Assembly (NCBI RefSeq): GCF_000686025.1
Contig: NZ_JMLQ01000004.1
Span: forward strand, 372,001 to 436,000
DNA from: Rhodococcus sp. UNC23MFCrub1.1
Lineage (GTDB): Bacteria; Actinomycetota; Actinomycetes; Mycobacteriales; Mycobacteriaceae
Reading direction: 5' to 3'
DNA length: 64,000 nt
Shown: positions 2,277 through 24,766 of the stretch, in pieces
Position numbering within the stretch: the first letter of the stretch is position 1
How the letters are laid out: each line of letters starts with the position of its first letter
Translations under genes and position numbers: made by a program
Notes under the pieces: model-generated
What the model was told of the DNA's origin: nothing
Database searches by the model: none
What the model saw: only the letters and a program-made list of their open reading frames with translations

Positions 2277-3767
2277 TCAGTCGTTCTCGGGGAACCCGAG
2301 GTTGATGCCGCCGTGGCTCGGGTCGAGCCAGCGGGAGGTGACGGCCTTGGCGCGGGTGAAGAAGTGCACGCCCTCGGTGCCGTGGGCGTGGGTGTCGCCG
2401 AAGAGGCTGTTCTTCCAGCCACCGAAGCTGTAGTAGGCCATGGGAACCGGGATCGGCACGTTGATGCCGATCATGCCGACCTCGACCTCGTTCTGGAAGC
2501 GTCGGGCGGCGCCACCGTCGTTGGTGAAGATGGCGGTGCCGTTGCCGTAGGGGTTGTCGTTGATGAGCTGCAGCGCCTCGTCGTAGGTGTCGACGCGGAC
2601 GACGGAGAGGACGGGTCCGAAGATCTCGTCGGTGTAGATGCTCATCTCGGGGGTGACGTGGTCGATGAGGGTCGGTCCGAGCCAGAAGCCCTCGTCCCCG
2701 CCGTCGGCCTTCACGGTGCGGCCGTCGACGACGATGGTGGCGCCGGATTCCTCGCCCGCGTCGACGTAGGAGGCGACCTTGTCGCGGTGCGCCTTGGTCA
2801 CCAGCGGGCCCATGTCTGCGCCGCGGGTGCCGTCGCCGGTCTTGAGCGGGGTGGTGCGCTCGCCGATCTTGGCGACCAGCTCGTCAGCGATGTCGCCGAC
2901 CGCGACGAGGGCGGAGATGGCCATGCAGCGCTCACCGGCGGAGCCGAAGCCGGCGTTGACCATGGCGTCGGCAGCGAGGTCGAGGTCGGCATCGGGGAGC
3001 ACGATGGCGTGGTTCTTGGCGCCGCCGAGGGCCTGGACGCGCTTGCCGTGCGAGGTGCCCGTGGCGTAGACGTACTGCGCGATGGGGGTGGAGCCGACGA
3101 AGCTGATGGACTTGATGTTGCGGTTCTCGAGCAGCTCGTCGACGGCCGTCTTGTCGCCCTGGAGGACGTTGAAGACGCCGTCGGGCAGGCCCGCTTCCTT
3201 CCACAGTTCGGCGATCCAGATGCTCGCCGTCGGGTCCTTCTCGGACGGCTTGAGCACGACGGTGTTGCCGGCGGCGATGGCGATGGGGAAGAACCACATC
3301 GGCACCATGGCCGGGAAGTTGAACGGGCTGATGATGCCGACGGGTCCGAGCGGCTGGCGCAGGGAGAAGACGTCGACTCCGGTCGAGGCGTTCTCGGTGA
3401 AGCCGCCCTTGAGCAGATGCGGGATACCGCAGGCGAATTCGACGACTTCCTGGCCGCGGCTGATCTCGCCGAGCGCGTCGGAGAGGACCTTGCCGTGCTC
3501 GGCGGTGATGATCTCGGCGAGTTCGCCCTTCTTCGCGTTGAGCAGCTCGCGGAAGTTGAAGAGGATCGCGGTGCGCTTGGACAGCGAGGTGTCGCGCCAG
3601 GCGGGGAAGGCGGCGGTGGCCGAGTCGATGACGACGCGGGCATCCTCGACGGTGGCGAGAGCGAGCTCGCCGGTGACCTGACCGGTGGCCGGGTTGGTGA
3701 CCGGGGAGGTCTTGTCGGAGGTGCCGGCGAACGGCTTGCCGTCCACCCAGTGCGTGATCGTGTTCAC
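2277..3767 (-). CDS. mmsA: CoA-acylating methylmalonate-semialdehyde dehydrogenase
   Basis: A 496-residue aldehyde dehydrogenase of the MMSDH type, which converts methylmalonate or malonate semialdehyde plus CoA and NAD+ into propionyl-CoA or acetyl-CoA with loss of CO2 (valine, beta-alanine and inositol breakdown). The signature is clear: ISPFNFPAMVPMWF at about 146, GGAKNHA at about 248 in place of the ELGGK glutamate of hydrolytic ALDHs, and the nucleophile C281 in GSAGERCMA. Loss of the general-base glutamate fits CoA transfer rather than hydrolysis. The GTG at 3767 has AAGGA about 7 nt upstream and gives the family's usual N-terminus (ITHWVDGKPF). It is divergent from a LysR regulator across 120 bp. 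Confidence 0.93.
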   Translation of the reverse strand: MNTITHWVDGKPFAGTSDKTSPVTNPATGQVTGELALATVEDARVVIDSATAAFPAWRDTSLSKRTAILFNFRELLNAKKGELAEIITAEHGKVLSDALGEISRGQEVVEFACGIPHLLKGGFTENASTGVDVFSLRQPLGPVGIISPFNFPAMVPMWFFPIAIAAGNTVVLKPSEKDPTASIWIAELWKEAGLPDGVFNVLQGDKTAVDELLENRNIKSISFVGSTPIAQYVYATGTSHGKRVQALGGAKNHAIVLPDADLDLAADAMVNAGFGSAGERCMAISALVAVGDIADELVAKIGERTTPLKTGDGTRGADMGPLVTKAHRDKVASYVDAGEESGATIVVDGRTVKADGGDEGFWLGPTLIDHVTPEMSIYTDEIFGPVLSVVRVDTYDEALQLINDNPYGNGTAIFTNDGGAARRFQNEVEVGMIGINVPIPVPMAYYSFGGWKNSLFGDTHAHGTEGVHFFTRAKAVTSRWLDPSHGGINLGFPEND

Positions 3768-13321: not shown

Positions 13322-14481
13322 TGGCATCGACGGGAACCGCAGCGCCCACCCTGGCCGAGATCATCGACGTGCTCGACGCGGCGTACCCGCCCCGGCTCGC
13401 CGAGAGCTGGGACTCGGTCGGTCTGGTGTGCGGCGATCCCGCGAACTCCGTGACCACCGTGATGTTCGCCGTCGACGCCACGGCCGCCGTCGTGGACGAG
13501 GCGATCACCGCCGGTGCCGATCTGCTCGTGGTGCACCACCCACTGCTGCTGCGCGGTGTCGACACAGTCGGTGCCCACACGCCCAAGGGCGCGTTGGTGC
13601 ATCGCCTGATCACGGCGGGGTGCGCTCTGTTCACCGCCCACACCAACGCGGACTCGGCGCAGCCCGGGGTGTCCGACGCGCTGGCGACACTGCTGGGCCT
13701 CACCGATCTGCGCCCGCTCGACGAGAAGTCGGACGGGGGCCTCGACAAGTGGGGTGTGTACGTCCCGGTGGCCGACGCCCCCGCTGTGCGGCAGGCCATG
13801 TTCGACGCGGGCGGCGGGTCGATCGGCGACTACCGCGAGTGCAGCTGGAGCGTCGTGGGCGACGGCCAGTTCCGTCCCGTCGACGACGCGCGGCCGGCGA
13901 TCGGCACCGTCGGCACCGTCGAGTCGGTCGAGGAACGGCGCGTCGAGATGGTCGCTCCGCGCTCTGCACGCGCTGCCGTTCTCACCGCGCTGCGCTCGGC
14001 GCACCCCTACGAGGAAGTGGCGTTCGACGTCGTCGAGACGGCCGGGTTGCCGACCGACTGCGGGCTGGGCCGGATCGGGACGCTGGCCGAGCCGATGTCG
14101 TTGCGCGCCTTCGCCGACCGCGTCGGCAGCCGGCTCCCGTCCACTGCCTGGGGAGTGCGCGCCGCCGGCGACCCGGACGCGACGATCCGGCGGGTGGCCG
14201 TGTGCGGTGGATCCGGGGACTCGATGCTCGGCGCCGTCACCGCAGCGGGTGTCGATGCCTACGTGACCTCCGACCTGCGACACCACGTGGCGGACGAACA
14301 CCTGCGGGCCGGCGGACCCGCGCTGATCGACGTCGCGCACTGGGCGGGGGAGTTCCCGTGGTGCGCCCAGGCGCGCGACCTGCTGGACAGCGCGTTCGGT
14401 GATCGCGACGGCTGGACCACCCGGACACTGACGATCAGAACGGATCCGTGGAGCATCGGCGTCCGTCCCCCGCAGGACTAG
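13321..14481 (+). CDS. NIF3 / DUF34 family metal-binding protein
   Basis: 386 residues. The NIF3 fold is marked by [13 protein letters not shown] near the N-terminus, the metal-binding [14 protein letters not shown] (about 62), TAHTNAD (about 105) and the C-terminal [13 protein letters not shown] plus [15 protein letters not shown]-like insertion occupies the middle. Family members are often called GTP cyclohydrolase I type 2, but the true activity is unsettled. The ATG at 13321 overlaps the cobC stop by 1 nt, and TAGGGT also lies 6 nt upstream, so an internal promoter is possible. Confidence 0.9.
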
Positions 14482-14494
14482 TACCGTGACACGC

Positions 14495-15232
14495 GTGAAC
14501 GTCGACCCGAAGATCCAGCTCTCCCTCCTCGACCTGGCCGCCATGGACACCGAACTGGCCCAGCTCGCACACCGTCGACGCACTCTTCCCGAGCAGGTCG
14601 AGCTCGATGCACTCGAACGCGAGCGGATCGACCGCAAGGACGCAGCCGTGGGCGTGCAGATCTCGCTCGACGATCTGGACCGGGACATTCGCAAGCTCGA
14701 GGGCGAGGTCGACGCCGTGCGCCGCCGCGAGGAGAAGGACCGCGCTGCGCTGGCCTCCGGCGCGGCTCCCGCGAAGCAGCTCAGCGAACTCCAGCACGAG
14801 CTGGGCAGCCTCGAGCGCCGCCGCGGCATCCTCGAGGACGAGTTGCTCGAGGTCATGGAGCAGCGCGAGGCGTCGCAGAGCGACTACGAGCACGCCGGTG
14901 CCAATCTGACACAGGTCGAGGACACGATCGTCGACGCCACCCGTCGACGCGACGACGCGCTCGCCGACGTCGAGAACGCCGAGCGCACTCGGTCGGCGCA
15001 GCGCGAGGAGCTCGCCGCGCAGCTGCCCGCCGAGGTGTCCGCGATGTACGAGAAGCAGCGTGAGAGGTCGGGCATCGGTGCGGCCCTGCTGCGTGGTCGG
15101 CGCTGCGGTGCGTGCCGGATCGAGCTGGATCGCGGCGAGATCGCGCGCATCGCCGGCACCGCGCCCGACGTGGTCGTGCGGTGCTCGGAGTGCAACGCGA
15201 TCCTGGTGCGCACCAACGAGTCCGGTCTGTGA
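14495..15232 (+). CDS. CT398-like coiled-coil zinc-ribbon protein
   Basis: 245 residues. A long antiparallel coiled coil (residues 10-180, heptad-rich with ELAQLAHRRRTLPEQ) is followed by a C-terminal zinc ribbon: CGAC near 202 and CSEC near 230. Such proteins are thought to bind nucleic acid or act as chaperones; the function is not established. The GTG at 14495 was preferred to GTG 14486 because TACCGT (14482-14487) lies 7 nt before it. The stop overlaps the next start as GTGA (15229-15232). Confidence 0.88.
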   Translation: MNVDPKIQLSLLDLAAMDTELAQLAHRRRTLPEQVELDALERERIDRKDAAVGVQISLDDLDRDIRKLEGEVDAVRRREEKDRAALASGAAPAKQLSELQHELGSLERRRGILEDELLEVMEQREASQSDYEHAGANLTQVEDTIVDATRRRDDALADVENAERTRSAQREELAAQLPAEVSAMYEKQRERSGIGAALLRGRRCGACRIELDRGEIARIAGTAPDVVVRCSECNAILVRTNESGL

Positions 15233-16341
15233 GTCCCCATCCCGACTCCGTCCTGGTGGAGGCCGACGGGGGATCGCGAGGCAACCCCGGGCCCGCCGGC
15301 TACGGAGCCGTCGTGTGGGACGCGGCGCGAGCCACGGTGTTGGCCGAGCGCCGCGAACACCTGGGAGTGGTGACGAACAACGTCGCCGAGTACCGCGGAC
15401 TGATCGCCGGTCTCGAGGCGGCCCGCGAACTCGGGGCCTCGCGCGTCTCGGTGCGGATGGACTCCAAGCTGGTGGTCGAGCAGATGTCCGGCCGCTGGAA
15501 GGTCAAGCACCCGGACATGATTCCGCTGCGCGCGCGAGCAGCCGCTGTCGCGGACACGTTCGACGACGTGCAGTACGCGTGGATTCCGCGTGCCGAGAAC
15601 TCGCATGCCGACCGGCTGGCCAACCAGGCGATGGACGGTGAGGACGCGCTGCTCACCGGTGCGGCCGAGGTCGCGAGCGCGCCGACGCCGGTGTCGGAAC
15701 GGCCTGCCTGGCAGTCCGTCTCGGGTGCCGCGACCCGCACGATCCTGCTGCGGCACGGCCAGACCGCCCTGTCGGTGGATCGTCGGTACTCCGGCCGAGG
15801 CAACCCGGAGCTCACCGAGCTCGGGCGAGCGCAGGCGGCGGCCGCGGCGCAGCGTGTCGCACTGCTGGGCGGCGTCGACGTCGTCCTGAGCTCACCGCTG
15901 GGCCGGGCGTTCGACACCGCGTCGGCCGTCTCCCGCGCGATCGACGTCCCCGTCACCGTCGTCGAGGATCTGACGGAGACGGACTTCGGCGAGTGGGAGG
16001 GCCTCACCTTCCTCGAGGCCACCGAGCGCGATCCCGAGCTGCATCGGCGGTGGATGGGCGACACGTCCGTCGCGCCTCCCGGCGGCGAGAGCTTCGATGC
16101 CGTCCTCGAACGGGTGCGTCGGGTCCGCGAACACATCGCGACCGAGTACGCGGGGAAGACCGTCGTCGTGGTCTCGCACGTGACGCCCATCAAGACGCTC
16201 CTGCAGCTCGGCCTGGACGTCGGCCCGTCGATCCTCTACCGGATGCACCTCGACCTGGCGTCCATCAGCATCGTCGACTGGTTCGACGACGACGCGGCCT
16301 CCGTACGCCTGGTGAACGACACGTCATTCCTCTGGACCTGA
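15229..16341 (+). CDS. Bifunctional RNase HI / acid phosphatase
   Basis: 370 residues, two-domain fusion. Residues 1-140 are RNase HI, with the catalytic acidic residues in VEADGGSRGNPGPAG, NVAEYRGLIAGLEAA, RMDSKLVVEQM and the distal Asp of ENSHADRLANQAMD. Residues 165-370 are a histidine phosphatase domain with LRHGQTALSV, SPLGRAFDTA, DFGEWEG and the second His in VVVSHVTPIKTL. The mycobacterial homologue (Rv2228c) combines RNase H with a CobC/alpha-ribazole-phosphatase-like domain. It starts in a GTGA overlap with the zinc-ribbon gene, so the cobC-NIF3-zinc ribbon-RNase H set is one operon. Confidence 0.95.
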   Translation: MSPHPDSVLVEADGGSRGNPGPAGYGAVVWDAARATVLAERREHLGVVTNNVAEYRGLIAGLEAARELGASRVSVRMDSKLVVEQMSGRWKVKHPDMIPLRARAAAVADTFDDVQYAWIPRAENSHADRLANQAMDGEDALLTGAAEVASAPTPVSERPAWQSVSGAATRTILLRHGQTALSVDRRYSGRGNPELTELGRAQAAAAAQRVALLGGVDVVLSSPLGRAFDTASAVSRAIDVPVTVVEDLTETDFGEWEGLTFLEATERDPELHRRWMGDTSVAPPGGESFDAVLERVRRVREHIATEYAGKTVVVVSHVTPIKTLLQLGLDVGPSILYRMHLDLASISIVDWFDDDAASVRLVNDTSFLWT

Positions 16342-16344
16342 CCC

Positions 16345-17613
16345 CTACACCTGCAGGGCGAGCCACAGGGCGACGGTCGCCGCGACCACGGTGATCGGTG
16401 TGGTCACCAGACCCACCACGGTGAACGTCCGCAGGCTCGGCGGCTCGCCCTCCGCGCGAGCCACGCGGCGCCACAACATGATCGCGAGCGACCCGACGTA
16501 GGTGAGGTTGGGCCCGAGGTTGACGCCGATCAGCATGGCGAGCAGCGCGCCCACCGGTGCAGCGCCTGTCGTCGACGTCAGTGCGGCGAGCAGCAGCAGC
16601 GTCGCGGGCAGGTTGTTGAGCACGTTGGAGGCGACCGCGGCCACCGCGGCGACGGTCAGGAGCGCGAGCAGCGTGGACGACGTCGGCAGGATCTCGGTGA
16701 CGGCCTCGCCCACCGGACCCCCGGCGAGTCCCGCGACCACCACTCCGAGCGCGAAGACGAACACGCAGAACCAGAGATCGAGTGCACGCACGATCGCGAC
16801 GGGAGTCGTCTCGGACCGGCGCAGCGCAGGAACGGCGAGCACGATCGCGGCCGCCGCGGCCACCCACACCGGTTCGAGGCCGAGCGACCCACTGATCGCG
16901 AAACCCACCAGAGCGCAGCCGATCACGACGAGGGCGAGCGTCGGCGCCGCCACGGACGGACCGTCGTCCTGCGGCGGGTTCTCCACCTCGCGCAGGTCGC
17001 CGCGGAACAACCAACGGAACGCCGCGTACTCGAGCGCGATCGCGACGAGCCACGGCGCTGCCATCAACGCGGTGAAGTGCAGGAACGACAGACCGGTGGC
17101 CGAGAACACCAGCAGGTTGGTCAGATTCGAGACCGGCAGCAGCGTGGAGGCCGAGTTCGACAGGTGTGCCACCGCATACGACGCCGGCCGTGGCGACATC
17201 CCGGCGCGGCGGGCGGCGGCGATGACGACCGGGGTGAGCAGGACGACCGTCGCGTCGAGACTGAGCACTGCCGTGGTGAGGGACGCGGTGACGAACACGA
17301 GCATCAGGAGCCGCGTGGGGGAGGATCGCGACCGGGCGTGCAGGACGGACGCGATCCACGTGAACACACCGTGCGCGTCGGCGAGGTGAGCGAGAGCCAG
17401 GATCGCCGCGAGGAACGCCACCGTGGGGGCGAGCTCCGCCGTCTCCTCGAGTGCGTCGCTCGTCGACACGACTCCGAGCAGGATCGCCAGTGCCGCGGCC
17501 GGAACGGCGATGGTGGCCTCGGGGAGTCCGCGAGGGCGAGCGATGGCGAAGACCAGGACGGCAGCCACCAGCAGCGCGGCCACGACGGTCCGCGCGGTGG
17601 AATCGGTGATCAC
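16345..17613 (-). CDS. ArsB/SLC13-like ion permease
   Basis: 422 residues with 10-12 hydrophobic segments. Features of the ion transporter superfamily are ATVVLLTPVVIAAARR, the SNSASTLLPVSNLTNLLV hairpin (about 158) and the repeat-related ASNVLNNLPATLLLLAAL plus GVNLGPNLTYVGSLAIMLW near the C-terminus, typical of ArsB/ArsP-type arsenite or Na+/carboxylate permeases. No arsR or arsC is nearby, so arsenite is only one option. The GTG at 17613 overlaps the DUF1697 stop (GTGA), so the two genes are co-translated. Confidence 0.85.
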   Translation of the reverse strand: MITDSTARTVVAALLVAAVLVFAIARPRGLPEATIAVPAAALAILLGVVSTSDALEETAELAPTVAFLAAILALAHLADAHGVFTWIASVLHARSRSSPTRLLMLVFVTASLTTAVLSLDATVVLLTPVVIAAARRAGMSPRPASYAVAHLSNSASTLLPVSNLTNLLVFSATGLSFLHFTALMAAPWLVAIALEYAAFRWLFRGDLREVENPPQDDGPSVAAPTLALVVIGCALVGFAISGSLGLEPVWVAAAAAIVLAVPALRRSETTPVAIVRALDLWFCVFVFALGVVVAGLAGGPVGEAVTEILPTSSTLLALLTVAAVAAVASNVLNNLPATLLLLAALTSTTGAAPVGALLAMLIGVNLGPNLTYVGSLAIMLWRRVARAEGEPPSLRTFTVVGLVTTPITVVAATVALWLALQV

Positions 17614-18137
17614 GCGAGGATCTTGCGCAGCGTGCGGAGGTTTCGCGTGGTCGTCGTCGACTTGTAGGACGCGCGCGCACTGGCCTTGCCGACGACGCTG
17701 GACAGGGTGTCACCGCGCACGACCTCCCAGAACAGGACGCGATGGGGCCCGAGTGTAGACCTCTCGACGGCAGGGTCGGCCGTCTCGCCGATCGCCGCGA
17801 GATCGGTGGTGGACACACCATCCGTCGAGAAGATCACGTAAGGGTGGCGTACCGCCTCGTCGGTCTCCCACGGGAAGGCGGCGACGATCTCGGCGAGCTG
17901 CTCCACGGTCACGACCACCACCCACGCCTCGTAGCCGAAGGCCTGCCGCAGGACGCCCTCCACGTCGGAGCGCACCACGGCCGGGTCCTGCGTCGTCGCG
18001 GTGAGCACCACGTTGCCCGACGCGAGAACGGTGCGCACCGCGGTGTATCCGGCGTCCTCCAGCGACGACCGCAGGGCCGCCATGGAGATGCGGATGCCGC
18101 CGACGTTGATGCCGCGCAGGAGGACGACGAAGGTCAT
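17610..18137 (-). CDS. DUF1697 protein
   Basis: 175 residues. The hallmark start FVVLLRGINVGGIRISMAAL and the C-terminal TTTTRNLRTLRKIL identify the DUF1697 family, widespread in bacteria and of unknown function. The ATG at 18137 lies 7 nt downstream of TAGAGT (complement 18145-18150), indicating a leaderless mRNA. It is the first gene of a two-gene operon with the permease. Confidence 0.9.
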   Translation of the reverse strand: MTFVVLLRGINVGGIRISMAALRSSLEDAGYTAVRTVLASGNVVLTATTQDPAVVRSDVEGVLRQAFGYEAWVVVVTVEQLAEIVAAFPWETDEAVRHPYVIFSTDGVSTTDLAAIGETADPAVERSTLGPHRVLFWEVVRGDTLSSVVGKASARASYKSTTTTRNLRTLRKILA

Positions 18138-18193
18138 GCGCGTGACTCTAGATCCCCGGTCCGACCGTCCGTCCGCTCGGCACACCCACCCCC

Positions 18194-18255
18194 CGCGAGT
18201 ACGTCCGAACTGTCGTGATCGCGGCTCGCCCAGCGACGGTTCGGACGTACTCGCG
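18194..18255. repeat. Perfect 17-bp inverted repeat with a 28-nt loop
   Basis: CGCGAGTACGTCCGAAC (18194-18210) is repeated exactly in inverted form as GTTCGGACGTACTCGCG (18239-18255). It lies between the divergent DUF1697 and rnpB promoters, so it does not follow any gene and is unlikely to be a terminator. A pair of regulator sites or a dispersed hairpin element are the options. Confidence 0.6.
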
Positions 18256-18305
18256 TGGGTCGACGAGGGGGTCGGGCGTGGGTGGGACGGGGGTGGCGGA
18301 GCGGC

Positions 18306-18311
18306 TACCAT
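18306..18311 (+). promoter_or_regulatory. -10 element of rnpB
   Basis: TACCAT is followed by 6 nt and then the first base of the P1 helix of RNase P RNA (18318), the spacing expected for a sigma-A-type -10 and start site. No good -35 is visible. Confidence 0.6.
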
Positions 18312-18317
18312 GACGGG

Positions 18318-18747
<430 letters not shown>

Positions 18748-18786
18748 GCACACGACCAGCACGGACCGCTACGTCGGAGGGCGGAC

Positions 18787-18802
18787 TAGAACATACGTTC
18801 GA
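18787..18802. promoter_or_regulatory. LexA (SOS) box-like site overlapping a promoter
   Basis: TAGAACATACGTTCGA matches the actinobacterial SOS box TCGAAC-N4-GTTCGA except at its first two inner positions (GAAC-N4-GTTC intact). On the plus strand TAGAAC could serve as -35, with 17 nt to TACAGT (18810-18815) as -10, so LexA binding would block this promoter. The transcript would begin near 18822, with no known gene downstream before 19217. Confidence 0.45.
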
Positions 18803-18821
18803 TGTCCTCTACAGTGAGTCT

Positions 18822-18865
18822 CGGCGGGCCGGCGGTAGGAAACTACGGGAAGCGTCGGCCCGCCG
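18822..18865 (+). ncRNA. Stem-loop at the start of a putative SOS-controlled transcript
   Basis: CGGCGGGCCGGCG (18822-18834) pairs with CGTCGGCCCGCCG (18853-18865) at 12 of 13 positions, beginning about 7 nt after the TACAGT hexamer. It could be the 5' structure of a small RNA or a leader. The same stretch holds an overlapping 36-codon frame from ATG 18802 to TGA 18912, rich in Arg and Pro, with no Shine-Dalgarno. No choice between these is possible from sequence alone. Confidence 0.3.
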
Positions 18866-18895
18866 CCACGTATCGAGTCCTCCTGAACGACGAAA

Positions 18896-18922
18896 GGCCC
18901 CGTCCTCGATGAGGGCGGAGCC
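18896..18922 (-). terminator. Hairpin terminator of the 30-codon ORF
   Basis: On the minus strand GGCTCCGCCCTC and GAGGACGGGGCC form a 12-bp stem (10 canonical pairs) with a 3-nt loop, followed by TTTCGTCGTT. It lies 18 nt after the stop of the small ORF at 18941, so it defines the end of that transcription unit. Confidence 0.5.
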
Positions 18923-18940
18923 GTTCGTGAGCAGAGTGGA

Positions 18941-19033
18941 TCAGATGGGGTCGACCACCAGCAGGGTGGCCCAGTACGTCGCGGCGTCATGGCCCATCAG
19001 CGGCAACAGTTGATCGAAGAGAAGGGTCGACAT
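18941..19033 (-). CDS. 30-residue small protein with leader peptide and terminator
   Basis: ATG 19033 to TGA 18941. AGGAG (complement 19040-19044) lies 6 nt upstream. The peptide begins MSTLLFDQLLPLMGHDAATY and ends with a hydrophobic WATLLVVDP stretch; it is amphipathic with no Cys and no family recognised. A promoter (TACACT), a 15-codon leaderless leader ORF and a downstream hairpin make a complete transcription unit that contains nothing else, which argues that it is real. The function is unknown; a small membrane-associated peptide fits the composition. Confidence 0.5.
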   Translation of the reverse strand: MSTLLFDQLLPLMGHDAATYWATLLVVDPI

Positions 19034-19042
19034 GTCGTACTC

Positions 19043-19090
19043 CTATCGGGTGCGTGGTCCGGCTCCGGTCCGGCGTGTGTACCCGGACAT
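19043..19090 (-). CDS. 15-residue leaderless leader peptide
   Basis: ATG 19090 lies 6 nt after TACACT (complement 19097-19102) with no Shine-Dalgarno. The product would be MSGYTRRTGAGPRTR. Its stop codon TAG (complement 19043-19045) overlaps the AGGAG of the following 30-codon ORF, so ribosomes finishing the leader would sit on the downstream ribosome binding site. Four of 15 residues are Arg. It may regulate the downstream ORF or simply deliver ribosomes to it. Confidence 0.4.
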   Translation of the reverse strand: MSGYTRRTGAGPRTR

Positions 19091-19216
19091 GCGAGAAGTG
19101 TAACGCGGCCGCTGGTCCCGCGGTGTGTGCGGTCGGCGCGTCGCCGACCGTGAATCACGAGGCCGCAGAACGCGAAGTCTGTTCCGTCGGGGCGGATCTG
19201 GGGCACACTGTCGATC

Positions 19217-19402
19217 ATGAGTGACGACGACGATCAGTGGTACTTCCGTATCAGCGACAAGGCTGTCGTGCAGGGCAAGGAGGCCGGTGCGATGGACCGC
19301 ATGGGCCCCTACCCCGACAGGGCCACCGCCGAGCGCGCCCTCGAGATCGCCGCGGAGCGTAACAAGGCCGCGGACGACGCCGACGACACCTGGTCTTCGT
19401 GA
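19217..19402 (+). CDS. Small SPOR-like conserved protein
   Basis: 61 residues beginning MSDDDDQWYFRIS and containing KEAGAMDRMGPYPDRATAE, an aromatic-plus-PYPDRATAERAL pattern resembling a short SPOR-type domain common in Corynebacteriales. It is acidic and soluble with no signal peptide. The function is unknown. CACACT lies 7 nt before the ATG, a near match to the leaderless -10 pattern. The RNB gene starts 16 bp downstream, so the two are probably cotranscribed. Confidence 0.7.
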   Translation: MSDDDDQWYFRISDKAVVQGKEAGAMDRMGPYPDRATAERALEIAAERNKAADDADDTWSS

Positions 19403-19418
19403 CCGCATCGGCGCGCTC

Positions 19419-20834
19419 GTGACCGCGTCGGTATCGAGGCGGGCCGTTGCGCCTCGGGTCGACGGTGTCGACTTCTCGGCTGTGCGCGCCGAGTTCGACC
19501 TGCCGACCGGGTACCCGCCCGACGCGGTCCCGGTGGCGGACTCTCGTCCGCCGCGGCGCGACGCGACCGACCTGGAGTTCGTGACCATCGACCCGCCCGG
19601 GTCGATGGATCTGGACCAGGCTCTCGTCGTCCACCGCACCGACGCGGGTTTCCGCCTGTACTACGCCATCGCCGACGTCGGTGCGGTCGTCGCGCCGGGA
19701 AGCGTGCTGGACGAGGAGGTGCGCCGCCGTGGACAGACGCTCTACCTCCCGGACGACAGCGTGCCGCTGCACCCTCGGCAGATGTCCGAGGACGCGTCGT
19801 CCCTCCTGCCGGACCGGGTACGGCCGGCCGCGCTGTGGACCATCGACACCGACCCCGCGGGGACGGCGACGTCCTGGCACGTCGAGCCGGCGACGGTGCG
19901 CTCACGGCAACGGTTCACCTACGCCGAGGTGCAGTCGGCTGTCGACTCCGGCACCGTGCATCCGTCGCTGACGGCGCTGCAGGATCTCGGTCGGGCGCGG
20001 CGGGCCCTCGCGGTCGAGCGTGGAGCCATCGAACTCGCGTTGCCCGAGCAGGAGGTCGTCGCCAACGGTTCCGACCGCGGCGGATGGCGCCTCGAGATCG
20101 CGCCGCGCACCGAGGCCGACGCGTGGAACGCCGAGATGTCCCTGCTCACCGGGATGTGCGCTGCCGCGATCATGCTCGAGGCGAGGGTCGGCATCCTGCG
20201 CACTCTCCCGCCGCCGGGCGCGTCGGACGTCGAGGCATTGCGGGCGGTGGTGCGGGCACTGGGCCTGCAGTGGCCGACCGGTGCCTCGCCCGGCCAGGTT
20301 CTCGCCGGCCTGGATCCGGCGGCTCCCACGACTCTCGCCGTGATGACCGAGGCGACCACGCTGTTGCGCGGCGCCGCGTACGTCGCCTTCGACGGTGAGA
20401 CACCCGAGCAGCCGGATCATTCCGGGATCGGTGGTCCGTACGCCCACGTCACCGCGCCGCTGCGTCGGCGCGTCGACAGGTACGCCACCGAGGTGTGTCT
20501 CGCCCACTGCGCCGGAACCGCTGTCCCCGACTGGGTGCTCGCCGAATTCGCGGACCTGCCCGACGCGATGCGGCGCAGCGACTCGCTGGCGTCGAAGGTG
20601 GACCGTGCGTGCATCGACCTCGTCGAGGCCAGAGTGCTGGCCGACAGCGTCGGCGACACCGTCTCGGCCATCGTGCTGCGCGGACGAACCGACAAGCGGC
20701 CCGCCGAGGTCTTCGTTCCCGAGTACACCGTCGTCGGCCCGTGTTCGGGAGACCCGGCCGAGGGCACGACCGTCACCGTGCGGGTGGGGCCGGTGGACGT
20801 CGCGACCCGGCGAGTGGAGTTCTCGGTCGGGTAG
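19419..20834 (+). CDS. RNB-domain ribonuclease (RNase II/R-like)
   Basis: 471 residues dominated by an RNB catalytic domain: TIDPPGSMDLDQAL (about 55) is the acidic active-site loop, followed by FRLYYAIADVGAVV, LPDDSVPLHPRQMSEDASSLLP and WNAEMSLLTGMCAAAIML. This family degrades RNA 3' to 5'. It lacks the N-terminal cold-shock domains and most of the S1 region of E. coli RNase II. The fourth Asp of the D-x5-D-x-D-D motif is Gln here. GTG 19419 is the first plausible start after the upstream stop; the exact N-terminus is uncertain. Confidence 0.85.
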   Translation: MTASVSRRAVAPRVDGVDFSAVRAEFDLPTGYPPDAVPVADSRPPRRDATDLEFVTIDPPGSMDLDQALVVHRTDAGFRLYYAIADVGAVVAPGSVLDEEVRRRGQTLYLPDDSVPLHPRQMSEDASSLLPDRVRPAALWTIDTDPAGTATSWHVEPATVRSRQRFTYAEVQSAVDSGTVHPSLTALQDLGRARRALAVERGAIELALPEQEVVANGSDRGGWRLEIAPRTEADAWNAEMSLLTGMCAAAIMLEARVGILRTLPPPGASDVEALRAVVRALGLQWPTGASPGQVLAGLDPAAPTTLAVMTEATTLLRGAAYVAFDGETPEQPDHSGIGGPYAHVTAPLRRRVDRYATEVCLAHCAGTAVPDWVLAEFADLPDAMRRSDSLASKVDRACIDLVEARVLADSVGDTVSAIVLRGRTDKRPAEVFVPEYTVVGPCSGDPAEGTTVTVRVGPVDVATRRVEFSVG

Positions 20835-20891
20835 GCCGGAGGCCGGTCGTCGGGTAGGCCGGAGGCCGGTCGTCGGTGGTCGGGTAGGCCG
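20830..20891. repeat. 23-bp tandem repeat, two copies plus a partial third
   Basis: The unit GGGTAGGCCGGAGGCCGGTC plus GTC occurs at 20830-20852 and 20853-20875; GGGTAGGCC recurs at 20883-20891. Each unit holds a GGCC-GGA-GGCC mini-hairpin. It begins at the stop codon of the RNB gene and fills the gap to the convergent CYTH-CHAD gene, so it may act as a bidirectional terminator or be slippage-prone filler. Confidence 0.6.
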
Positions 20892-20900
20892 CTCAGGTTG

Positions 20901-22436
20901 TCAGCCGAGGGAGGCTGCGCGGCGCCGCAGCTTCGTCCACGCGCGGGGGAGCGGCTCCAGCGCGTCCGCGCTGTCGTGTCCCTCGTTCGCGTACAGGACA
21001 CCGAAGGTGAAGGTGTCCTCGCCTCGCTCGGCCGCGGAGGCGGCCTCGGTCAGGATCGTGGCGCGCGACACCGCACTGTCCTGGACGTCGCCGAGGACGG
21101 ACTGCACCTTCTTCGCGGCCTTCGCGACGTCGGCGGCCGTCGTTCGTACTGTTCCGTCCGAGAGTGCGCCCGCCGCTGCCTCGGCCGCGTAGCGCAGCTT
21201 CTTGGCGTTCTTGCGCACGTCGTGCAGAGCCTCGGCACGCTCGTCGCCGGTGAGCGCGGCCGCGTGAGCCTCGGCTCGGGCGATCGTGCGGTACTGGCCA
21301 CGGAGCACCTTCCGGAAGACCTTGTCCGCGCGGCCGTCCGACGGACCGACGGTGGGTGCTGCCAGGAGTGCATCGAGCGCGTCGAGCAGGGCGAAGTAGC
21401 GCTCGCCGCTCAACTCCCGCACGATCTCCTCGTGCGCGAGCGTGTACAACCGTCGCTGGGTGCCGACGAGGGTCTCGACCACGGGACCGCGCACAGCGTC
21501 GGACGGCAGCGCCGAGAGCGACGCGTCGTAGCGGGCCGCCAGCACCTCTGCGTCGCGAGCGGTGCCGAGAATGTCGGCGAGCCAGGACAGTTCGCCACGG
21601 ACCGCGTCGACGGACGTTCGGTCGAGCAGGTCGCGGTAGGACCGCAGCACGCTGCGCAGTCGCCGCGTGGCGACGCGCATGGCGTGCACCGCGTCGTCGT
21701 CGTTCTCCCGCACGCGCGGATCCGCCGCGAGGAGAGCGGACACGTCAGTGGCCAGGGCGGCGAGCAGCGCGGACCCGGCGGTGCCGTCGGGCGTGGCATC
21801 GCCGGTCCGGAGATCCGCCAGGCGGGATCCGAGCGCCCGTGCGAGCTTCGACGGTGAGGAACCGGGGTCGGCGCCGTGGGAGAGCAGGTAGGTGCTCACC
21901 TTCTCCAGGGTGCGGCGGTCACCGTCGATCAGCTCCACCTCCCATTCGCGCCAGCGAACAGTGGTGTCGTCCAACAAATTCCGGGCGGTGACGGTGTCGT
22001 CGCACAGCTCCGCGGCGGTCTGGTGCCGCTTCGTGGCCACGACGGTGACGATGCGGCGGGTCTCGATGCTCGCGACGGGCACGAGCGGTTTGCCTCGCAC
22101 GTGCGCCGTCACACCATCGGCGACCTCGGCCGGCACGCGAGCGGTGTTGCCGCCCGCGGACAGCGGGCTCCGCAGCTCGAGACGCTCGTCGGACGAGACG
22201 GGCATCTTGATGTGCCAGCCCGCGTCGGAGCTTCCGGTCCGTCGACGCACCGTGATGCGTCGACGCGCCAGGTCGAGATCCGGGGTGTCGAAGTACGTGG
22301 AGACCGGGTGTGTCAGCTCCGGCGCGGACGCGGACACGATCGACTTCGCCCCCGTGAGCTCGGGAACCGGCGTGTCCATGCCGACGTCGAACTTGGCCTC
22401 GATCTCCGTGTGCGCATCCGCACCACCTGAACTCAT
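20901..22436 (-). CDS. CYTH-CHAD domain protein
   Basis: 511 residues. The N-terminal CYTH domain (1-205) has the ExExK triphosphate-binding motif EIEAK at 11-15 and STYFDTPDLDLARRRITVRRR. The C-terminal CHAD domain (about 225-505) is helical and His/Arg/Lys-rich, with DDAVHAMRVATRRLRSVLRSYRDLL and the repeated KLRYAAEAA. CYTH domains hydrolyse inorganic or organic triphosphates and CHAD domains bind polyphosphate, so a role in polyphosphate metabolism is likely. The palindrome CACCTGCAGGTG at 22451-22462 lies just upstream of the ATG and may be a regulatory site. Confidence 0.93.
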   Translation of the reverse strand: MSSGGADAHTEIEAKFDVGMDTPVPELTGAKSIVSASAPELTHPVSTYFDTPDLDLARRRITVRRRTGSSDAGWHIKMPVSSDERLELRSPLSAGGNTARVPAEVADGVTAHVRGKPLVPVASIETRRIVTVVATKRHQTAAELCDDTVTARNLLDDTTVRWREWEVELIDGDRRTLEKVSTYLLSHGADPGSSPSKLARALGSRLADLRTGDATPDGTAGSALLAALATDVSALLAADPRVRENDDDAVHAMRVATRRLRSVLRSYRDLLDRTSVDAVRGELSWLADILGTARDAEVLAARYDASLSALPSDAVRGPVVETLVGTQRRLYTLAHEEIVRELSGERYFALLDALDALLAAPTVGPSDGRADKVFRKVLRGQYRTIARAEAHAAALTGDERAEALHDVRKNAKKLRYAAEAAAGALSDGTVRTTAADVAKAAKKVQSVLGDVQDSAVSRATILTEAASAAERGEDTFTFGVLYANEGHDSADALEPLPRAWTKLRRRAASLG

Positions 22437-22475
22437 GGTGACATCTTTACCACCTGCAGGTGAACGGCCGGTTCG

Positions 22476-23441
22476 TCAGCGGCGGAAGGAGTCCGTCGCT
22501 TCGACGAGGTGATGGATGATTCCCGGTTCCGCGGCGGAGTGCCCGGCGTCGTCGACGATGTGGAGTGTCGACGACGGCCAGGATCGATGCAGATCCCAGG
22601 CGCTCGTGGCCGGGCACACCACGTCGTAACGGCCCTGCACGATGACACCGGGGATGTGGGCGATGGAGTCCATGTTCGCCAGCAACTGATTCTGTTCCAG
22701 GAACCCCTGGTGCACGAAGTAGTGATTCTCGATGCGCGAGAACGCGAGTGCGAACCGTGCCTCGGAGTTCTGCTCCACGCGTTCCGGTTTCGGGAGCAGG
22801 GTGCTGGTGGCGCCCTCCCACGTGGACCACGCGACCGCCGCGTTCAGCGCGGTCTCCGGGTCGGACGAGTGAAGGAGTCGGTGGTAGATCTCCACGGGGT
22901 CGCCGTCGCGCTCCGCCGCCGGGATCGGGGCGAGAAACTTCTCCCACAGTTCTGGGAAGAGGTGTCCCGCGCCGCCGCGGTAGTACCAGTCGATCTCCGA
23001 CTCACGCAGCAGGAAGATGCCGCGCAGCACCAGTGACGTGACGCGGTGCGGGTGCGCCTGGGCGTACGCGAGCGACAACGTCGATCCCCACGACCCGCCG
23101 AACACCGACCACGTGTCGATGCCGAGATGCTCACGCAGGACCTCCATGTCGGCGATGGAGTGTCCGGTGGTGTTGACGGAGAGATCGGCGCCGTCGGCGA
23201 CGTGCGGCGTGGACCGACCGCACCCGCGCTGGTCGAACAGCACGATCCTGTAGGCCTCGGGATCGAAGTAGCGACGCTGATCGGGACCCGTGCCGCCGCC
23301 CGGTCCGCCGTGCACGAACACCACCGGAGTGCCGTCGGGGTTGCCGCTGACCTCGAAATGGAGGTGCTGCCCGTCGCCGACGTCGAGCATCCCCGAGTCG
23401 TGCGGGTCGAGTTCGGGGTAGAGGGACCGGCGCGCCGTCAT
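22476..23441 (-). CDS. pip: Proline iminopeptidase
   Basis: 321 residues, alpha/beta hydrolase of peptidase family S33. Visible are FVHGGPGGGTGPDQRRYFDP (oxyanion region, about 41), FDQRGCGRS, the nucleophile in FGGSWGSTLSLAYAQAHP (about 108), the Asp in VIVQGRYDVVCP and the His in VDDAGHSAAEPG. It removes N-terminal proline from peptides. ATG 23441 directly follows the stop of the lipoprotein gene; GTG 23447, overlapping that stop as GTGA, is an alternative that adds two residues. Either way the genes are translationally linked. Confidence 0.93.
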   Translation of the reverse strand: MTARRSLYPELDPHDSGMLDVGDGQHLHFEVSGNPDGTPVVFVHGGPGGGTGPDQRRYFDPEAYRIVLFDQRGCGRSTPHVADGADLSVNTTGHSIADMEVLREHLGIDTWSVFGGSWGSTLSLAYAQAHPHRVTSLVLRGIFLLRESEIDWYYRGGAGHLFPELWEKFLAPIPAAERDGDPVEIYHRLLHSSDPETALNAAVAWSTWEGATSTLLPKPERVEQNSEARFALAFSRIENHYFVHQGFLEQNQLLANMDSIAHIPGVIVQGRYDVVCPATSAWDLHRSWPSSTLHIVDDAGHSAAEPGIIHHLVEATDSFRR

Positions 23442-23443
23442 CG

Positions 23444-23860
23444 TCACAGCCCCACGAGGCCCGACGCGAGATCGGGAATCTCGAGGATGTCGACGACCTG
23501 GCTCCGGACGTCGGAGCACGCGTCGGTCGCGGCCGTGTCGACGATCCCGCGGTTCTGGATCACTGCGGCGTTCAGTCCGAAGCGTGCCGCCCACGTCTGC
23601 ACCAGGATGTTCAGGCCGCCGCGGCCCACGGTCGGGCCCTGCACGCGCCAGTTCGACAGCTGCGCCTCGAGGTCGGTGCACAGCGACTGAGCCTGATCCT
23701 CGGACACCGTCGGGGTGGCCGCAGCCGCCGACGTGGTCGTCGTGGGAGCGGCCGTCGTCGTCGACGCAGTGGTGGTGTCCGTCCCGCCTGCGCACGACGT
23801 CAGGGTCACGGTCGCTGCTGCCAAGACACCCGCCGCGGCGAGTCCATGTCGCATCATCAT
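23444..23860 (-). CDS. Putative lipoprotein
   Basis: 138 residues. A short signal ends in the lipobox LTSC (Cys at about 23), followed by a Thr/Ala/Ser-rich linker and a roughly 90-residue extracytoplasmic domain with two Cys that could form a disulfide (SLCTDLEAQLSNW and DACSDVRSQVVDILEI). No known family was recognised. The first ATG (23860) lies 7 nt after CACACT, a near match to the window's leaderless promoter pattern. It is coupled to the downstream iminopeptidase gene. Confidence 0.7.
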   Translation of the reverse strand: MMMRHGLAAAGVLAAATVTLTSCAGGTDTTTASTTTAAPTTTTSAAAATPTVSEDQAQSLCTDLEAQLSNWRVQGPTVGRGGLNILVQTWAARFGLNAAVIQNRGIVDTAATDACSDVRSQVVDILEIPDLASGLVGL

Positions 23861-23929
23861 GGCCCCGAGTGTGCCACCCGGGTGCTTTCCCGACCGGCCC
23901 GCCCGCGTCGCTCGCCAGGGGTCGCAGTC

Positions 23930-24766
23930 CTAGAAGCTGTGCTCCTGCGCGGGGAAGGCCCCCGACCGCACCTCGGCGGCGTAGGTCGACGCCGCGGCGC
24001 GCAGCTGGTCGCCGACGTCGCCGAAACGCTTGACGAACTTGGCGGTGCGACCGCTGGTGAAACCGGCCATGTCCTGCCAGACGAGAACCTGGGCGTCGCA
24101 CTCCGGACCGGCACCGATGCCGACGGTGGGGATCGTCAGCTTGCGCGTCACCTGGCCGGCGAGATCGGCGGGCACCATCTCCATGACGACGGCGAAGGCG
24201 CCGGCCTCCTGGACGGCGATGGCGTCGGCCACGAGCTGCTCGGACGCGTCGCCGCGGCCCTGCACGCGAAAGCCACCGAGTCCGTTGACGCTCTGCGGGG
24301 TGAAGCCGATGTGCGCCATCACGGGGATACCGGCGGCGGTGATGGCGGCGATCTGCGGGGCGACACGCTCGCCGCCCTCGAGCTTGACCGCGTTGGCCTG
24401 GCCCTCGCGCATGAAGCGGACAGCGGTCTCGACGGCCTGCTGCGGAGAGATCTCGTAGGTGCCGAACGGCAGGTCGGCGACCACGAGTGCGTTGGGGGCA
24501 CCACGGACCACGCCGCGGACCAGGGGGATGAGCTCCGCGATGTCGATGTGCACCGTGGTGTCGTAGCCGTAGACGACGTTGGCGGCCGAGTCGCCCACGA
24601 GCAGGACGGGGATGCCGGCCTCCTCGAAGATGCGCGCGCTCGAGTAGTCGTAGGCGGTGAGCATGCTCCAGCGGTCGCCGGAGGCCTTCATCGCCTGCAG
24701 GTGGTGGGTGCGGGTCTTGCGGCCCGTGGGTGCGGATCCGTACAGCGGGGTCTCAGCAGCAGACAT
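23930..24766 (-). CDS. panB: Ketopantoate hydroxymethyltransferase
   Basis: 278 residues. It transfers a hydroxymethyl group from methylene-tetrahydrofolate to 2-ketoisovalerate, the first committed step of pantothenate and CoA synthesis. Family motifs: [41 protein letters not shown] (metal-binding Asp), [32 protein letters not shown] and [21 protein letters not shown]. The ATG at 24766 has AAAGGGA upstream; the 36 extra residues of the longer frame overlap the divergent promoter region and are not family-like. Confidence 0.96.

Follow-up and report, generated by a model that had tools for sequence, protein, structure and literature searches.

Organization of the locus

The gene described here lies on the minus strand of the window, by which we mean the whole stretch of 64,000 nt that was analysed, between the convergent gene rnpB and a divergently transcribed ORF of 61 aa (Table 1). 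A preliminary description of this DNA had proposed a miniature transcription unit made up of a promoter-like TACACT, a 15-codon leader frame, an AGGAG, a 30-codon ORF and a hairpin, and each of these elements is indeed present. The TACACT (19102–19097) is followed after six bases by an ATG at 19090, which opens the 15-codon frame; the TAG stop of that frame (19045–19043) overlaps the AGGAG (19044–19040), and the 30-codon ORF, which is in the same reading frame, begins with an ATG at 19033 and closes with a TGA ending at 18941.

On the far side of rnpB there is a DUF1697 gene. The 61-aa ORF, whose best Pfam score is 14.1 bits to DUF6316 against a cut-off of 28.5, is also present in the genus-mates included in the upstream alignment. 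An Rfam search of positions 14000–24000 (E ≤ 1) returned, besides rnpB, one microRNA match far below its cut-off.

Table 1. Features of the microprotein locus and its neighbours, in window coordinates
Feature	Position	Strand	Basis or remark
RNase P RNA gene rnpB (class A), convergent with the ORF	18323..18746	+	Rfam RNaseP_bact_a, 261.5 bits
Hairpin 3′ of the ORF with a weak U-tract; the transcript probably ends here	18890..18928	-	folding
30-codon ORF MSTLLFDQLLPLMGHDAATYWATLLVVDPI, belonging to a conserved family of microproteins	18941..19033	-	conservation, coding signature
Probable 5′ UTR, ~57 nt	19034..19090	-	start point placed from the -10 element only
AGGAG ribosome-binding site	19040..19044	-	read from sequence
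15-codon frame MSGYTRRTGAGPRTR	19043..19090	-	present; judged non-functional and species-specific
TACACT, probable -10 element	19097..19102	-	sequence and alignment; strict promoter scan silent
Divergent ORF, 61 aa, acidic	19217..19402	+	Pfam scores all below cut-off
RNB-domain (RNase II type) gene beside the 61-aa ORF	19422..20834	+	RNB E 1.1e-47 over 19422-20831; start provisional

The 30-codon ORF is a conserved protein-coding gene

The microprotein gene was found by profile search in all 37 of the 37 genomes of the window's genus (E ≤ 1e-4). When divergent copies were included in the profile, 154 of 351 sampled genomes of the bacterial family, which we take to be one of mycolic-acid bacteria, matched at E ≤ 0.01, a count that takes in three matches in genus g29 (E 2.7e-4 to 0.0084) that we regard as chance and four in genus g13 (E 1.6e-5 to 0.0016) of doubtful status; the g29 matches, as seen in the order-level sample, are partial and lie inside long frames. 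Matches occur in 12 of the 31 genera of the family, one of them by the matches regarded as chance. Among 201 genomes of the family, a search with the protein found 90 that match at E ≤ 1, 83 of these at E ≤ 0.002 and the other seven with best E values of 0.03–0.84 that could be due to chance. The named loci (the best 80 of 150 confirmed) come from Rhodococcus, Rhodococcoides, Nocardia, Antrihabitans and Aldersonia.

Outside the family, nothing rose above noise in samples of 397 genomes from the order and 394 from the class; 41/397 and 27/394 of these genomes match at E ≤ 0.1, family members among them. Candidate relatives outside the family, with a best E of 0.006, consist of short pieces mostly inside long frames and were judged to be chance. 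Searches of plasmids, phages and viral contigs found no relative; in one of these searches 18 stretches matched a pattern, and none of them encodes a relative. Where seen, the gene is chromosomal; a single bacterial family accounts for all matches above noise, and some genomes carry two or three copies.

All of the 104 distinct loci (105 were examined) encode 29–35 residues. Exactly 30 codons are found in 91 of them and 29, 31, 34 or 35 in the others; there are natural members with up to five additional C-terminal residues. The start codon is ATG at 100 loci and GTG at four, and a ribosome-site word lies at positions -16 to -5 in 73/104 loci versus 58/728 control windows. Mean pairwise amino acid identity is 0.63 within the ORF but 0.11 in the 20 codons that precede it and 0.10 in the 20 that follow, so that the conserved segment coincides with the ORF from start codon to stop.

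The pattern of substitution is that of a protein. The preliminary description had proposed that both frames be sought in close relatives and their variation inspected for a synonymous bias, and it is the 30-codon ORF that is conserved and shows the bias, with a pN/pS of 0.32 in its own frame (468 close pairs) versus 0.95–3.22 in four other frames; the 15-codon leader is not conserved. Between the window copy and its genus-mates, pS is 0.32–0.43 and pN is 0.12–0.14. In frame -2 the ratio is also low, 0.49, which we attribute to the mirroring of third positions that is commonly seen; stops occur in that frame in 80/90 sequences. In frame +1, 2/90 sequences, which are the 29-residue members, already meet a stop in the first 30 codons. 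Among 87 distinct sequences, S2 and L9 are present in every one, while being encoded by four and six different codons, respectively. P11, G14, A18 and A22 are each found in 86, P29 in 85, D7 in 83, W21 in 82 and Y20 in 79; the divergent paralogues are without Y20 and W21.

The 30-codon ORF thus evolves as a protein-coding gene, and it is almost certainly a real one. The proposal of a real small protein of no recognised family is borne out by this conservation, by pN/pS and by the library searches: for the window protein, no family was returned by Pfam, NCBIfam, PHROGs or PADLOC at E ≤ 10, and a sequence search of the PDB gave no match of any kind. Searches of the open-access literature found no paper on this peptide, nor any occurrence of three sequence words. 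We name it here the YWA microprotein, for the conserved triplet YWA.

The upstream frame and the control of the gene

Leaderless short-ORF attenuators occur in mycobacteria, and the preliminary description had suggested that translation of the Arg-rich 15-codon frame controls the ORF behind it. In one possible scenario, translation of this leaderless frame responds to arginine or charged tRNA and thereby sets translation of the microprotein. The geometry is what one would ask of such a leader, with an exact leaderless spacing from the -10 element to the ATG, the reading frame of the ORF itself, and a stop that overlaps the ribosome site. However, no relative from another species showed the frame. 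A start codon 5–8 nt after TANNNT is found at three of 107 loci (a few of which are one place fetched twice), namely the window, a genome of the same species, and L125, where it belongs to an unrelated GTG frame of eight codons.

In the four genus-mates L010–L013 the microprotein gene has the same divergent neighbour as in the window. In these loci the -10 element is in the same position (TACACT in L011–L013, TATGAT in L010), and there is no ATG or GTG at leaderless spacing after it and little similarity from there to the ribosome site; R. trifolii (L080) is likewise without such a frame. Nor is there excess RNA structure in the upstream 80 nt, where the mean z is -0.29 and 5/104 loci fall below -2. 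The likeness to mycobacterial attenuators is confined to the leaderless start geometry and to the window's species; the leader is not conserved, and what stands behind it is an ORF followed by a hairpin and convergent rnpB. A frame with special codons conserved in relatives, by which an attenuating leader peptide would be recognised, was not found.

Control by the leader is consequently a highly improbable reading, and the simplest account is that the leader ATG is there by chance. Because the leader is found only in the window's species while the -10 element is retained in genus-mates, we regard the unit as a self-contained microprotein gene that is not controlled by a leader.

Putative promoter and transcript end

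A strict consensus scan of 18740–19260 gave no sigma-70 promoter and no terminator. An extended -10 (TGNTANNNT) is found 25–120 nt upstream of the ORF in 42/104 loci versus 0/617 control windows, a contrast that is inflated, since most of the control sequence is probably coding; the window copy has the plain TACACT and not the extended form. Two further observations concern the upstream region. Palindromes like those of Crp/GlxR (TGTGA-N6-TCAC) lie upstream of the microprotein start in Nocardia loci such as L108, L111 and L126. In a set of loci of which many are close relatives, a best score of 9/10 was counted in 9/106 loci versus 0/838 neighbouring windows and 5/1060 base shuffles, and a score of 8 in 30/106 loci versus 12/838 windows and 40/1060 base shuffles; a site of this kind does not extend to the window copy, which scores 7/10, the background level. 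In the fascians-group copies L088, L091 and L094, the promoter region contains repeated words such as CTACAGTCTC and CTACAAGTCTC.

Downstream of the ORF, the hairpin has its main stem at 18922–18896 and 16 pairs in all across 18928–18890. It folds at -24.7 kcal/mol, with a z of -3.35 relative to 200 shuffles (51 nt), has a poor U-tract, and reaches a z of only -1.44 when a segment of 80 nt is folded. Across 103 loci the downstream 80 nt have a mean z of -3.6, and 71/103 are below -2. As regards the terminator that had been proposed to close the unit, the hairpin is in agreement with a transcript that probably ends after the ORF; the strict scan is silent. Termination may differ between copies, since in L077 and L093 the probe inside rnpB lies only ~30 nt past the stop codon, which leaves little room for a hairpin.

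Genomic contexts and a second copy

The gene occurs in three main contexts. In the first it is convergent with rnpB; in the fascians group it adjoins two CNNM/CBS-domain genes; and in 25 Nocardia loci it precedes pdxS (SOR_SNZ). Among the named loci (the best 80 of 150), convergence with rnpB is seen in at least 29/80 within 3 kb and in at least 13 within 120 nt, the counts being lower bounds that come from an exact 15-base probe; R. erythropolis is among the species that carry the gene beside rnpB. Neighbour genes in this survey were called by a simple GC-frame rule. No neighbour is common to the rnpB, pdxS and CNNM/CBS contexts, a finding that speaks against any fixed partner in an operon.

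The recurrent convergence with rnpB, together with the hairpins 3′ of the ORF, could be taken to mean that the transcript is a regulatory RNA or an rnpB-associated antisense RNA whose ORF is incidental, or an RNA of dual function. This is very unlikely: the constraint is at the level of amino acids and stops outside the ORF, many copies are located away from rnpB, and the Rfam search described above offered no RNA family of this kind for the region.

The window's genome carries a second copy of the family (L118:5098-5190, minus strand; match G000:C4:78100-78186), which has a TTG start and was left out of the start-codon count for the 104 loci. Next to it, downstream and on the same strand, lies an acidic ORF of 33 aa (L118:4877-4978; MITDLASFVDFLGALSDIFGGSGDFLDGLSFFS). 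Elsewhere in the genome, two tiny acidic ORFs stand in tandem on the minus strand (L155:3007-3105 and 3389-3490), both ending in LSFFS, and the first of these and the 33-aa ORF are paralogues (85%). The family of the 33-aa ORF is found in 6/151 genomes of the bacterial family at E ≤ 2e-4, all of the window's genus.

Predicted structure and possible mode of action

The AlphaFold2 model predicts two helices, residues 3–13 and 15–27, with a mean pLDDT of 80.4 and a pTM of 0.42. For both helix segments the mean hydrophobic moment is above that of each of 200 shuffles, and 59/74 distinct peptides contain no K or R. A transmembrane segment is usually recognised by a 19-residue stretch with a mean Kyte-Doolittle value of 1.6 or more; the best such value among 68 peptides is 1.53, which falls short of it, and by this measure the microprotein is not a membrane-spanning helix. 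CydX, KdpF and AcrZ are bacterial accessory proteins of ~30–50 residues, helical and easily missed by annotation, and the microprotein resembles them in size and helix; they differ from it in being single transmembrane helices. A fold search of the PDB gave 12 matches with a best E of 5.2.

The residues G14, A18 and A22 are four positions apart and form the pattern G14xxxA18xxxA22, a small-xxx-small arrangement known for close helix packing, and from this we infer an action by helix packing. In the scheme that we propose, a promoter with the -10 element TACACT would give rise to a short mRNA whose 5′ UTR is of the ordinary kind, and no upstream peptide would control the gene. Translation from the ribosome-binding site would give a protein of two short amphipathic helices (~3–13 and ~15–27) hinged at G14, and the message would end at the hairpin between the ORF and convergent rnpB. 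The protein would act by packing of its helices through G14/A18/A22 together with W21 and L25, either in an oligomer of its own or with a larger partner. The promoter, the transcript, its end and its expression are here deduced from sequence. Given the pTM and the fold-search result, the mode of action is weakly founded, and we offer helix packing tentatively, as a mechanism that falls somewhat short of probable. The account as a whole, a self-contained microprotein gene combined with this mechanism, appears to us moderately probable.

A different mode of action would be that of a small hydrophobic toxin in a type I toxin-antitoxin pair. The peptide is indeed small and hydrophobic, has a promoter-like element and a hairpin of its own, and is present in two or three copies in some genomes. 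There is, however, no segment of transmembrane strength; the distribution within the genus is complete rather than patchy; phages, plasmids, viral contigs and PADLOC gave no match; and no antisense RNA family was found in 14000–24000. There is little chance that the gene is such a toxin.

Relation to envelope peptides and implications

A bolder possibility is that the protein is an envelope peptide like PorA/PorH, which would reach the mycomembrane with no need of a signal peptide, might be acylated at the invariant Ser2, and would oligomerize through its small-xxx-small face. According to PMC5310785, PorA (45 residues) and PorH (57 residues) carry no recognised signal sequence and undergo serine mycoloylation, and the export route of peptides of this type is called unknown. 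The likeness extends to the Corynebacterium proteins PorACj and PorACur, which have fewer than 60 residues, no presequence and an amphipathic helix, and come from mycolic-acid bacteria (PMC5310785, PMC5944148, PMC3792995). The microprotein is comparable in each structural respect, with 29–35 residues at all 104 distinct loci, no presequence as judged from its length and sequence, and amphipathic alpha helices according to the model and the hydrophobic moments. This likeness in physical properties is real.

In favour of an envelope peptide, the microprotein is tiny, acidic, poor in K and R and amphipathic, and is above noise only in one family. The idea is also kept alive by the second copy, which adjoins the acidic 33-aa ORF, whose paralogue in turn forms a tandem with a third tiny ORF. 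Several points speak against it or mark a difference. The likeness is by description, with no known sequence relationship. The microprotein is shorter, at 30 residues versus 37–57 in the PorA/PorH-type peptides. The Corynebacterium genes are described as lying between groEL2 and a polyphosphate kinase gene (PMC5944148), whereas the microprotein gene lies by rnpB, pdxS or CNNM/CBS-domain genes. The Rhodococcus channels treated in PMC9233653 are MspA-like, and mapped mycoloylation, according to PMC11066868, falls mostly in flexible Ser/Gly-rich stretches, unlike Ser2. Finally, matches are confined to 12 of the 31 genera of the family, one of which is presumed to match by chance. We therefore consider an envelope peptide of this kind unlikely; and it is improbable that Rhodococcus and Nocardia make undescribed, signal-less, 30-residue peptides analogous to PorA/PorH that would form oligomers through G14xxxA18xxxA22 and be lipidated at Ser2.

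The architecture of the unit is ordinary; it is the protein that is conserved and that matches no searched family. The locus illustrates that a perfect-looking leaderless leader can arise by chance. A protein that is present in 37/37 genomes of the genus and in Nocardia, and that has no match in the libraries of families searched, offers a clean target for further work, and its near-invariant residues S2, L9, P11, G14, A18, A22 and P29 suggest point mutants. If the envelope peptide idea were true, signal-less mycomembrane peptides would extend beyond Corynebacterium, which would bear on how such peptides are exported.
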